DNA of 64,000 nucleotides, taken from NCBI RefSeq assembly GCF_035594035.1, contig NZ_CP141588.1, forward strand, positions 310,001 to 374,000, written 5' to 3'. Shown piece after piece: positions 25,285 through 28,010 of this stretch. The notes under the pieces are model-generated. The model was given only the letters and a program-made list of their open reading frames with translations. It had not been told where the DNA came from and made no database searches. Both the position numbers and the translations under genes were made by a program. Positions within the stretch are counted from its first letter, which is position 1. Each line of letters starts with the position of its first letter. The DNA is from Sphingomonas sp. LY54. Lineage in GTDB: Bacteria > Pseudomonadota > Alphaproteobacteria > Sphingomonadales > Sphingomonadaceae.

Positions 25285-25737
25285 ATGATTCGTGACGACA
25301 TCAAGGCTGCGCTGGTCGTGGCCATGAAGGCCGGCGAGAAGCAGCGCACCGCCACCATCCGCCTGATCCAGTCGGCGATCAAGAATCGCGATATCGAGCT
25401 CAGGACCGCCGACAAGGCCCCGGACGACGATGCGCTGGTGACCGAGGTCCTCCAGAAGATGATCAAGCAGCGCCGCGAATCGATCACGATGTTCGAGCAG
25501 GGCGGCCGCGCCGAACTAGCCGAGCAGGAGAAAGCCGAGGTCGCGGTAATCGAGGCTTTCCTCCCCGCCCAGATGAGCGAGGACGAAACCAAGGCGGCGA
25601 TCGACGCGATCGCGGCCGAGATCGGCGCCGCGAGCGTCAAGGACATGGGCCGCGTCATGGCCGTCCTCAAGGAACGCCACGCCACCGCCCTCGACATGAG
25701 CAAGGCGAGCGGCCTTGTGAAGGCGCGGCTGGGGTAA
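25285..25737 (+). CDS. yqeY: GatB/YqeY domain protein
   Basis: A 150-residue helical protein with the GatB C-terminal/YqeY fold. MIRDDIKAALVVAMKAGEKQ, RLIQSAIKNRDIE and AEVAVIEAFLPAQMSEDE are family hallmarks. In GatB this fold contacts tRNA; the stand-alone protein has no firm function. It begins the conserved yqeY-dnaG-rpoD run. A REP-like hairpin starts two bases after its stop, and the DUF559 gene now separates it from dnaG. Confidence 0.9.
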   Translation: MIRDDIKAALVVAMKAGEKQRTATIRLIQSAIKNRDIELRTADKAPDDDALVTEVLQKMIKQRRESITMFEQGGRAELAEQEKAEVAVIEAFLPAQMSEDETKAAIDAIAAEIGAASVKDMGRVMAVLKERHATALDMSKASGLVKARLG

Positions 25738-25738
25738 T

Positions 25739-25774
25739 CTCCCCTCCCGCTTGCGGGAGGGGTTGGGGGTGGGC
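25739..25774. repeat. left inverted repeat of the DUF559 cassette
   Basis: A 36-bp element made of a hairpin (CCCCTCCCGC / GCGGGAGGGG, 25741-25762) followed by TTGGGGGTGGGC. Its inverse at 26132-26167 matches at 33 of 36 positions by eye. It starts two bases after the yqeY stop, where it may also stall or end transcription. Confidence 0.85.
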
Positions 25775-25785
25775 AATGTCGAGCC

Positions 25786-26172
25786 ATGCCCGATTTCCGG
25801 CCCCGCCCCACCGCCCTCGCCCAGTCGCTGCGCAACCACGCGACCGATGCGGAACGGCACTTGTGGCGGCATCTCAGCCGGCGCCAGCTGGGCGGCTACA
25901 AGTTCAGCCGGCAAATGCCGATCGGCCCGTTCGTCTGCGATTTCCTGTGCCGGGAGGCGCAATTGGTTGTCGAGGTCGACGGCGGGCAACATGATCGCAA
26001 TGCGGGCCGAGACGCATCGCGCACCCATTATCTCGAAGCTGAAAGCTTTCGCGTGATCCGGTTCTGGAACAATGACGTACTGGAAAATGTGGAAGGCGTG
26101 CTGACGTCGATCCTGGGCGCCCTCCAGGCCGGCCCACCCCCGGCCCCTCCCGCAGGCGGGAGGGGAGCTTAA
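25786..26172 (+). CDS. DUF559 domain protein, endonuclease-like (VSR/restriction fold)
   Basis: A 128-residue protein of the DUF559 family, which is related to the PD-(D/E)XK / very-short-patch-repair nuclease fold. Visible motifs are SLRNHATDAERHLWRHLSRR, the GGYKFSRQMPIGPFVCDF strand, the acidic VVEVDGGQHD (likely metal site) and SFRVIRFWNNDVLENVEGVL. The C-terminal GPPPAPPAGGRGA is encoded by the right inverted repeat, so the gene end and repeat are fused. Its TAA overlaps the dnaG ATG by one base (TAATG). No strong ribosome site precedes ATG 25786. The gene is flanked by matching inverted repeats and interrupts a conserved housekeeping cluster. Nuclease activity is a family-level inference. 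Confidence 0.85.
   Translation: MPDFRPRPTALAQSLRNHATDAERHLWRHLSRRQLGGYKFSRQMPIGPFVCDFLCREAQLVVEVDGGQHDRNAGRDASRTHYLEAESFRVIRFWNNDVLENVEGVLTSILGALQAGPPPAPPAGGRGA
26132..26167. repeat. right inverted repeat, containing the dnaG ribosome-binding site
   Basis: The inverse copy of 25739-25774. The hairpin arms are CCCCTCCCGC (26144-26153) and GCGGGAGGGG (26156-26165). The right arm contains GGAGG at 26159-26163, eight bases before the dnaG ATG at 26172, so the repeat supplies dnaG's Shine-Dalgarno sequence and can sequester it. Confidence 0.8.
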
Positions 26173-28010
26173 TGTCGCTCTCCCCCCAATTCCTCGACGA
26201 GGTCCGGGCCCGCACGCAGCTTTCGGCGGTGATCGGGCGGTCGGTGAAGCTGCTGCGCGCCGGGCGCGAGTGGAAGGCCTGCTGCCCGTTCCACAATGAG
26301 AAGACGCCGAGCTTCACCGTCAATGACGAGAAGGGCTTCTACCATTGCTTCGGCTGCAGCGCGCATGGCGACGCGATCCGCTGGCTGACCGACAAGCAGG
26401 GCCTGCCGTTCATGGAGGCGGTGAAGGAGCTGGCCGACGCCGCCGGGCTCGAGGTCCCCGCCGCCGATCCCCGCGCCCAGCAGAAGGCCGAGCGCGCGTC
26501 GGGCCTCTACGGCGTGATGGAGGCCGCGGCCGCCTGGTTCACCGAGCAATTGGGCGGCATCGACGGCGCCGATGCCCGCGCCTATCTCGACAGGCGCGGC
26601 ATCAAGGACGCCATCCGCACGCGCTTCGGCTTCGGCTATGCCCCGGATTCGCGCAGCAAGCTCAAGGCGGCTCTGGCCGAGTTCGGGGTCGAGCGGCTGG
26701 TCGAGGCCGGCCTGCTGATCGAGCCCGAGGGCGGCAAGGAGCCCTATGACCGCTTCCGCGGCCGGCTGATGATCCCGATCCGCGACCAGCGCGGCCGCGT
26801 GATCGCGTTCGGCGGGCGCATTCTCGGCGAGGGCGAGCCCAAATATCTCAATTCCCCCGAGACGCCTTTGTTCGACAAGGGTCGCACCCTCTACAATCAC
26901 GACCGTGCCGGCCCGGCCAGCCGCAGTGCCCACCGCGTGATCGTAGTCGAGGGCTATATGGACGTGATCGCGCTGGACCAGGCCGGCATTTCGGAAGGCG
27001 TGGCGCCGCTCGGCACCGCGCTCACCGAGGGCCAGCTCGAGCGGCTGTGGCGGATGGCGGGCGCGCCACTGCTCTGCTTCGACGGCGACGCGGCCGGGCA
27101 GAAGGCGTCGGTCCGCGCCGCTTTGCGCGCCCTCCCCCATATCGCGCCCGGCAAGTCGCTCGGCTTCGTCACCCTGCCCCCGGGCCAGGACCCGGACGAC
27201 CTGCTCCGCGCCAAGGGGCGAGCGGCGCTCGAGGAATTGCTGGAGAAGCCCGAAAGCCTGGTCGACCGGCTGTGGCGGCACGAGAGCCAGGCCGAGCCTT
27301 TGGTAACGCCCGAGGAACGCGCCGGTTTGAAGCGCCGCCTGCTCGATCATGTCCAGACGATCGGCGACCCCGACGTCCGCGACCAATATAAGAGCGAGCT
27401 GATGGAGCGTTTCTACACGCTCACAAGGCCCAAGCGCGAACCGTGGCAGCCGCGCCAGCAATGGACCAAGGGCGGCCGCTTCGCGCCGCAACGGCCGACC
27501 ACGCCGCAGGCGAAAGCGGTCGGGCTGAGCGGCCTCGGCGCGCAGACTGCGCGGGCCGTTCTCCACGGACTGCTGCGCTTTCCGGAGGTGATCGCCGACC
27601 ATATCGAGGCGATCGCAGCCATCCCGCTGGCCGAAAAAGCGGGGGTCGATCTGCGCCGCGCGCTGCTCGATGCCGCCCTGCATCACGGTGAACTTGATCC
27701 CGAGCGCCTAAATACCATATTGGCGGACACGGGTGTGGCTGGTCTCATTGGCGAGCTGCGCCTGCAACAAGGTTTGTCCTTTTCCTTTATTCGACGTGAT
27801 GCCGACCCGGAACGTGCTCGTCGCGACCTCGTTCTGGTCATCGAGACTCTGGCAGCACGCCCCGGACTGGAGGCCGCCCTCGAGGCGGCGACCGCACGGT
27901 TGAAGGAAGAGGGCGACGAAGCCGCATTCCAGGAGCAGCAACGGCTCCGGGCGGCGCGGGACGAGGCGGACAGGCAGCTCGCGACCCTCTTGGTCGACGT
28001 GGCTGATTGA
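26172..28010 (+). CDS. dnaG: DNA primase
   Basis: Synthesises RNA primers at the replication fork. The 612 residues show the N-terminal zinc-binding domain (CCPFHNEKTPSF then CFGC), the RNA polymerase domain and the Toprim motif VVEGYMDVIALDQAG with acidic FDGDAAGQKA. The C-terminal helicase-binding region is less conserved, as usual. The gene sits between the DUF559 cassette and rpoD, 18 bases before the latter. Its start codon overlaps the DUF559 stop, and its ribosome site lies in the cassette's right repeat. Confidence 0.97.
   Translation: MSLSPQFLDEVRARTQLSAVIGRSVKLLRAGREWKACCPFHNEKTPSFTVNDEKGFYHCFGCSAHGDAIRWLTDKQGLPFMEAVKELADAAGLEVPAADPRAQQKAERASGLYGVMEAAAAWFTEQLGGIDGADARAYLDRRGIKDAIRTRFGFGYAPDSRSKLKAALAEFGVERLVEAGLLIEPEGGKEPYDRFRGRLMIPIRDQRGRVIAFGGRILGEGEPKYLNSPETPLFDKGRTLYNHDRAGPASRSAHRVIVVEGYMDVIALDQAGISEGVAPLGTALTEGQLERLWRMAGAPLLCFDGDAAGQKASVRAALRALPHIAPGKSLGFVTLPPGQDPDDLLRAKGRAALEELLEKPESLVDRLWRHESQAEPLVTPEERAGLKRRLLDHVQTIGDPDVRDQYKSELMERFYTLTRPKREPWQPRQQWTKGGRFAPQRPTTPQAKAVGLSGLGAQTARAVLHGLLRFPEVIADHIEAIAAIPLAEKAGVDLRRALLDAALHHGELDPERLNTILADTGVAGLIGELRLQQGLSFSFIRRDADPERARRDLVLVIETLAARPGLEAALEAATARLKEEGDEAAFQEQQRLRAARDEADRQLATLLVDVAD

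Follow-up and report, generated by a model that had tools for sequence, protein, structure and literature searches.

How repetitive extragenic palindromes (REPs) spread in bacteria is still open, and the enzyme so far tied to them is a Y1 transposase, the REP-associated tyrosine transposase (RAYT, or TnpA-REP). In the RAYT REPtron, as far as the available parts of PMC8266576 and PMC8049555 describe it, the coding sequence is bordered by inverted palindromes, gene-less doublets lie elsewhere, the enzyme gene is rarely duplicated, and enzyme and repeat go together. Such a doublet, the REP doublet forming hairpin (REPIN), consists of two inverted REPs with a short variable spacer (PMC8049555, in part), and the enzyme gene mostly stays put while REPINs multiply (PMC8266576, in part). 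Another group of Y1 transposases, TIRYT/TIRtron, is accompanied by GGGGWSAS inverted repeats (PMC3733652). The present analysis concerns a DUF559 gene located between yqeY and dnaG in Sphingomonas sp. LY54, within a stretch of 64,000 nucleotides (contig NZ_CP141588.1, positions 310,001 to 374,000), hereafter the window. This gene is enclosed by two inverted REPs and is probably part of a REPtron-like system in which a Vsr-fold nuclease stands in RAYT's place, the DUF559 product being the enzyme of its own REP family. This reading is based on the enclosure of the genes, the doublets present elsewhere, the co-variation of repeat and protein, the correlated copy numbers, the intact nuclease fold and active site, and purifying selection.

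The system resembles the RAYT REPtron in that (i) the DUF559 gene is bordered by inverse REPs, (ii) matching doublets occur elsewhere, (iii) the gene is rarely duplicated and (iv) enzyme and repeat are paired. It differs in its enzyme, a PD-(D/E)XK/Vsr-fold nuclease (PF04480) and not a Y1 HUH transposase, and in its repeat, the tail of which is a G-run (G-quadruplex) motif, with no GTAG beside the stem in the window arms as read by eye. No match to the Y1 transposase profile (PF01797) was obtained in the LY54 genome, and a Y1 transposase was not found in 15 of the 26 genomes of the genus sample.

The DUF559 locus and its repeats in Sphingomonas sp. LY54

The features of the locus, in window coordinates, are the following:
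25285..25737, + strand: yqeY, left neighbour, host gene
25738..25774, + strand: left REP, hairpin 25741-25762 and inward tail 25763-25774 (DNA fold -11.3 kcal/mol, z -2.8)
25755..25773, + strand: G-quadruplex motif GGGAGGGGTTGGGGGTGGG, overlapping the 3' half of the left hairpin (motif test on the sequence)
25786..26172, + strand: DUF559 gene for a predicted Vsr-fold nuclease, 128 aa, domain until about residue 113, final codons running through the right REP
26132..26169, - strand: right REP, inverted copy, hairpin 26144-26165 and tail 26143-26132 (hairpin present in the minimum-energy structure, z only -0.76)
26133..26151, - strand: matching G-quadruplex motif of the right REP (motif test on the sequence)
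26172..28010, + strand: dnaG, right neighbour, host gene
from 28023: rpoD, downstream of dnaG

Over 40 nt, the two inverted arms (25735-25774 and 26132-26171) show 90% complementarity. Re-reading of the window confirmed the 36-bp inverse repeats described in the original prediction, which match at 33 of 36 positions (25739-25774 against the complement of 26132-26167, counted by eye), enclose DUF559 as their sole gene and have no transposase between them. Each repeat was also correctly described as a hairpin with a G-rich tail: both arms are made of a 22-nt palindrome (25741-25762; 26144-26165) and a G-rich tail pointing inward. The enclosed gene matches Pfam PF04480 with 132 bits (cut-off 20.6). 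Its stop codon (26170-26172) shares position 26172 with the dnaG start, which places the right repeat within the 3'-terminal part of the DUF559 frame. Since the G motif in the window overlaps the 3' half of the hairpin, hairpin and G-quadruplex would exclude each other. The same yqeY-DUF559-dnaG layout is found in the annotation of Sphingomonas parapaucimobilis. The yqeY-dnaG gap of the window gave no Rfam match above the gathering score, and the DUF559 protein gave no match at E 0.01 to the known defence models of PADLOC.

The DUF559 protein is predicted to have the Vsr/I-Bth0305I nuclease fold with a conserved active site, and the relationship to the VSR/PD-(D/E)XK fold put forward in the original prediction is borne out by structure comparison and by the catalytic residues. 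Indeed, the structure model (mean predicted local distance difference test, pLDDT, 83.8) gave two PDB matches at E <=0.001 in Foldseek, 3hrl and I-Bth0305I, and VIA-align ranked 3hrl, I-Bth0305I and Vsr at the top. E23, E63, D65, H69 and D76 are invariant in an alignment of 46 sequences (rows with stops excluded), and E-x-D...H is present in 102 of 104 genus genes. The genes appear to be under purifying selection (ratio of nonsynonymous to synonymous substitution rates 0.07-0.27, computable pairs only). The window protein shares its catalytic domain fold with the EDxHD homing endonuclease I-Bth0305I, but is a stand-alone 128-aa open reading frame (ORF) situated between two genes and between REPs, and lacks both an intron and a long additional DNA-binding region. 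Unlike the Vsr mismatch endonuclease, DUF559 is enclosed by REPs.

The core palindrome CTCCCGCNNGCGGGAG occurs in 17 copies in the LY54 genome (3.28 Mb), against 0 for the reversed control pattern. Two copies, 403 bp apart, border DUF559, another 12 are grouped in six close pairs with 61-119 bp between them, and 3 are single. Five of the six pairs are inverse with inward-facing tail sides (one of the five has a decayed tail) and one pair is direct. These dispersed inverted doublets are REPINs, because two inverted REPs with a short variable spacer match the REPIN arrangement described in the accessible part of PMC8049555. A second DUF559 gene of this genome (C1:692839) has another inverted repeat around it, 54 nt long and different from that in the window. 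In another genome of the genus (G002), 16 sequences, selected for being doublets, share arms CCCTCCCCCTTGATGGGGGAGG then GGGTGGGGGTGATG, a variable spacer and unlike flanks, and one of its five DUF559 genes bears CCCTCCCCCTTGATGGGGGAGG/GGGTGGGGGTGATG arms on both sides. One doublet folds at z -9.4. REP doublets were also observed apparently within a coding region, presumably glyS (locus L122, 8560-9060).

Enclosure of DUF559 genes in the genus and beyond

The genus sample of 26 genomes contains 119 PF04480 matches, in 25 genomes; DNA was available for 112, and 109 were tested after removal of three with less than 250 bp of flank. The enclosure score was that of the highest-scoring ungapped inverted repeat on either side of the gene, with a pass threshold of 16; the window pair scores 28. 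Scores of at least 16, 20 and 24 were reached by 91, 81 and 69 of the 109 matches, respectively, and by 3, 1 and 0 of 2000 random positions in the same loci. After joining two matches in G011 that are pieces of one gene, 90 of 108 DUF559 genes are enclosed; the corresponding figure for other ORFs of at least 300 nt from the same DNA is 4/585, one being a Y1 transposase locus. In 1.07 Mb of loci, inverted pairs with arms 200-1200 nt apart surrounded DUF559 in 54 cases and other sequence in 12, of which two had DUF559-type repeats; as the regions were picked for DUF559, only the 12 is unbiased.

A four-run G motif is shared across differing repeat sequences: 100 of the 218 DUF559 flanks in the genus carry it facing inward and 11 facing outward, compared with 27 of at most 4000 random windows.

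Enclosure extends to other taxa. A scan of 575 named relatives, of which the best 80 were kept, near the window's clade by design (3 skipped for short flanks), gave 60 enclosed loci out of 77, versus 2/1000 in the control. These include Sphingomonas, Sphingobium, Novosphingobium, Variovorax, Rhodanobacter, Lysobacter and Pseudoxanthomonas, as well as metagenome bins labelled Desulfarculus, Marinimicrobia and Anaerolineales, and the G motif is inward on 91/120 and outward on 16/120 flanks of the 60 loci. In the class sample PF04480 is present in 93 of 289 genomes; 14 of 30 best-match loci pass, and some others have shorter repeats of like appearance. Seven of 10 plasmid-collection loci (from 44 records) pass, including Deinococcus (score 53) and Sinorhizobium meliloti (102). 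The loci of E. coli (score 8), Picosynechococcus (13) and Azospirillum brasilense (12) stay below the threshold. The association between DUF559 and inverted repeats is firm, and in the comparison that the original prediction had proposed, the genes lie between inverse copies far above chance: 90/108 in the genus and 60/77 in named genomes, versus 3/2000 and 2/1000 in the controls.

The S. meliloti gene lies between inverted repeats of 114 nt that are almost perfect, and an IS4-type transposase adjoins it (L326, around 1354-2044). DUF559 is also found inside operons in Sphingomonas parapaucimobilis, between sufB and sufC and between two NAD(P) transhydrogenase genes (pnt), and between paaD and paaZ in Deinococcus.

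Matching of repeat and nuclease

Among 88 intact genes with repeats, protein identity correlates with repeat similarity (Spearman 0.505, 3653 pairs without common flanking DNA, a filter for non-orthologous pairs through which distant orthologous loci may have slipped), the maximum of 1000 permutations being 0.079. A repeat similarity of at least 0.8 was reached by 42 of 59 pairs at 60-70% protein identity, versus 1 of 1147 at 30-40%.

Copy numbers follow the genes as well. In all 26 genomes a generic stem pattern is commoner than its reversed control, with up to 419 copies per genome; the excess is smallest in G013 (8 vs 7), which has one DUF559 gene, and also low in G009 (33 vs 19), which has no intact one. 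REP excess correlates with DUF559 number (0.63, p 5e-4, 26 genomes, the G011 number being taken as 8 after joining the pieces; 0.71 in 21 good genomes). Copies of three repeat families were also compared with the number of genes with a matching flank, flank copies being subtracted and cognate genes assigned by the author from the enclosure results (for G021, from family-pattern results): p was 0.012 for D2 (0.001 in the 21 good genomes), 0.04 for E (0.07) and 0.07 for F (0.04), and the combined permutation p was 0.0005.

Two DUF559 genes of one genome are never more than 64% identical (153 pairs, 88 analysed genes). For 66 of the 88 the flanking DNA recurs at a DUF559 locus in a different genome, and the genes fall into 35 locus groups. 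It therefore seems that the gene-less doublet multiplies and that the nuclease gene is mostly inherited in place, as is likewise the case for TnpA-REP in the available part of PMC8266576.

A role of the nuclease in REP spread, to which co-variation and copy-number correlation point, would be the most economical reading. The DUF559 gene would fill the spacer of a REPIN, with the tails of the two inverted REPs inward. The nuclease may act on its own repeats: it could recognise the REP of its own family, perhaps in folded, single-stranded form (a hairpin, the 3' arm of which overlaps the G-quadruplex motif), and cut in or beside it, after which host repair or replication might copy gene-less REPINs to new sites. 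The gene itself would mostly be inherited vertically, and its loss could lead to REP decay, as suggested by one genome only. Such a mechanism would give a widespread nuclease family of unknown function a concrete, testable role, provide a candidate enzyme for REPs in genomes without a detected RAYT, and offer an alternative reading for those DUF559 proteins that currently carry a Vsr repair annotation. The matched and mismatched nuclease/repeat pairs form a natural matrix usable for biochemistry. No paper linking DUF559 or GIY-YIG to REPs was found among open-access papers; publication elsewhere is possible.

Several observations weigh against this reading. In the genus 18 of 109 matches fall below the threshold, and in the class sample the same is true of 16 of 30 best-match loci. 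Tail direction among 88 elements is inward in 60, outward in 10 and undecided in 18, hence clear in 70 only. Genome size shows a trend with both DUF559 number (0.34, p 0.09) and REP excess (0.37, p 0.06). Cognate counts are imperfect (p per family 0.01 to 0.07, 26 genomes): copies without a cognate gene found include 18 of E in G016 and, in drafts, 25 of D2 in G017 and 10 of D2 in G019, and G020, G011 and G005 have several F copies and no cognate gene found. Finally, ycjD, the DUF559 gene of E. coli, has no enclosure (score 8), and the similar G-rich repeat adjoining it, which resembles boxC, is present in 5375 of 5426 E. coli genomes, at a median of 18 places per genome, though sapF-ycjD-fabI is well covered in only 3361. 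In the three E. coli strains without ycjD that were read, an efflux cassette is beside sapF instead.

GIY-YIG genes and alternative explanations

Stand-alone GIY-YIG nuclease genes have the same architecture as DUF559 with other repeats. In the genus 26 of 30 GIY-YIG loci are enclosed at a score of at least 16, by repeats such as CGTCATTCCCGCGAAAGCGGGAAT (L161-L190), and the four-run G motif is inward on 1 of 52 flanks of the 26 loci. It is an evenly balanced proposition that many bacterial REP/REPIN populations are kept by stand-alone small nucleases of homing-endonuclease folds, at least two of them unrelated (DUF559 and GIY-YIG) and each with its own repeat class, and not by HUH transposases.

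GIY-YIG genes also occupy the site seen in the window. A yqeY gene was located in 25 of the 26 genomes, and the stretch up to dnaG was read in 24. The original prediction had regarded repeats independent of DUF559 genome-wide, together with a fixed yqeY-DUF559-dnaG order, as fatal to a mobile unit; the order is not fixed, the gap containing DUF559 in 9 genomes, a broken DUF559 in 1, a GIY-YIG gene in 7 and neither in 7. The broken copy, a relic with decayed repeats, is in G009, which alone in the genus sample has no intact DUF559 match. The seven GIY-YIG genes sit between other inverted repeats, five scoring at least 16 and two scoring 15 (L137, L138, L145, L149, L151, L153, L157). Among the gaps with neither gene, those of G007, G014 and G022 are only 6-16 nt, G018 and G019 retain a single REP, and G011 and G017 have longer gaps (by eye).

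The best-surviving alternative, itself unlikely, is that REPINs are spread by something else and that DUF559 and GIY-YIG are selfish homing-type nucleases lodged in borrowed repeats: the nuclease would cut REPINs or gene-less sites and be copied in by repair, with the REP arms as homology. This would agree with the kinship of DUF559 to I-Bth0305I by fold and sequence, with the presence of GIY-YIG, a fold known from homing endonucleases (PMC3943268, in part), in the same architecture and the same gap, with the 35 locus groups, and with DUF559 between suf and between pnt operon genes. It is opposed by the lack of recent within-genome gene copies among the 88 genes, by REP numbers that track DUF559 numbers, and by the lack of a Y1 transposase match in the LY54 genome.

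It is very improbable that the association merely reflects a coincidence of habits, DUF559 being a repair gene of the Vsr type located in intergenic DNA that is rich in REPs. The Vsr fold and the unenclosed ycjD would fit, and the published DUF559 protein VsrA of Caulobacter, read as a Vsr repair enzyme in the available part of PMC12907096, also speaks for repair and against a REPtron-like role; other ORFs of the same DNA are seldom enclosed (4/585), however, and repeat and protein sequences co-vary.

Marginally less credible still is joint transposition of the gene and its inverted repeats, the minimal mobile unit of the original prediction. Inverted ends, a single gene, several loci and the element-free gaps of 6-16 nt would suit such a unit. 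Recent multiple gene-bearing copies in one genome, the mark of an insertion sequence or composite transposon, were not seen among the 88 genes, those from one genome share at most 64% identity, 66 of the 88 are at shared loci, and a transposase is absent between the repeats, which leaves the unit unsupported. The related suggestion that the nuclease moves or maintains REP-like repeats in the manner of RAYT holds as regards the tie, by enclosure, of an unrelated small nuclease to repeats, and fails as regards gene hopping with the repeats. A role of the repeats as terminators or autoregulatory sites belonging to the gene has the smallest likelihood of all, for although the repeats hug DUF559 and the right one enters its coding end, the stem pattern reaches 419 copies per genome, doublets without a gene exist and neither window stem is followed by a T-run.

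The REPtron-like reading of DUF559 also differs from TIRYT/TIRtron, as enzyme and repeats are other ones. Y1 loci of the genus served as a positive control: of 19 matches, eight were tested with a wider search margin and five had inverted repeats, several of the GGGGACA type. Y1 transposases with GGGGACAGT-type inverted repeats, together with doublets of that type, make up a third class of enzyme and repeat in these genomes (L054 5361-6068, L128).
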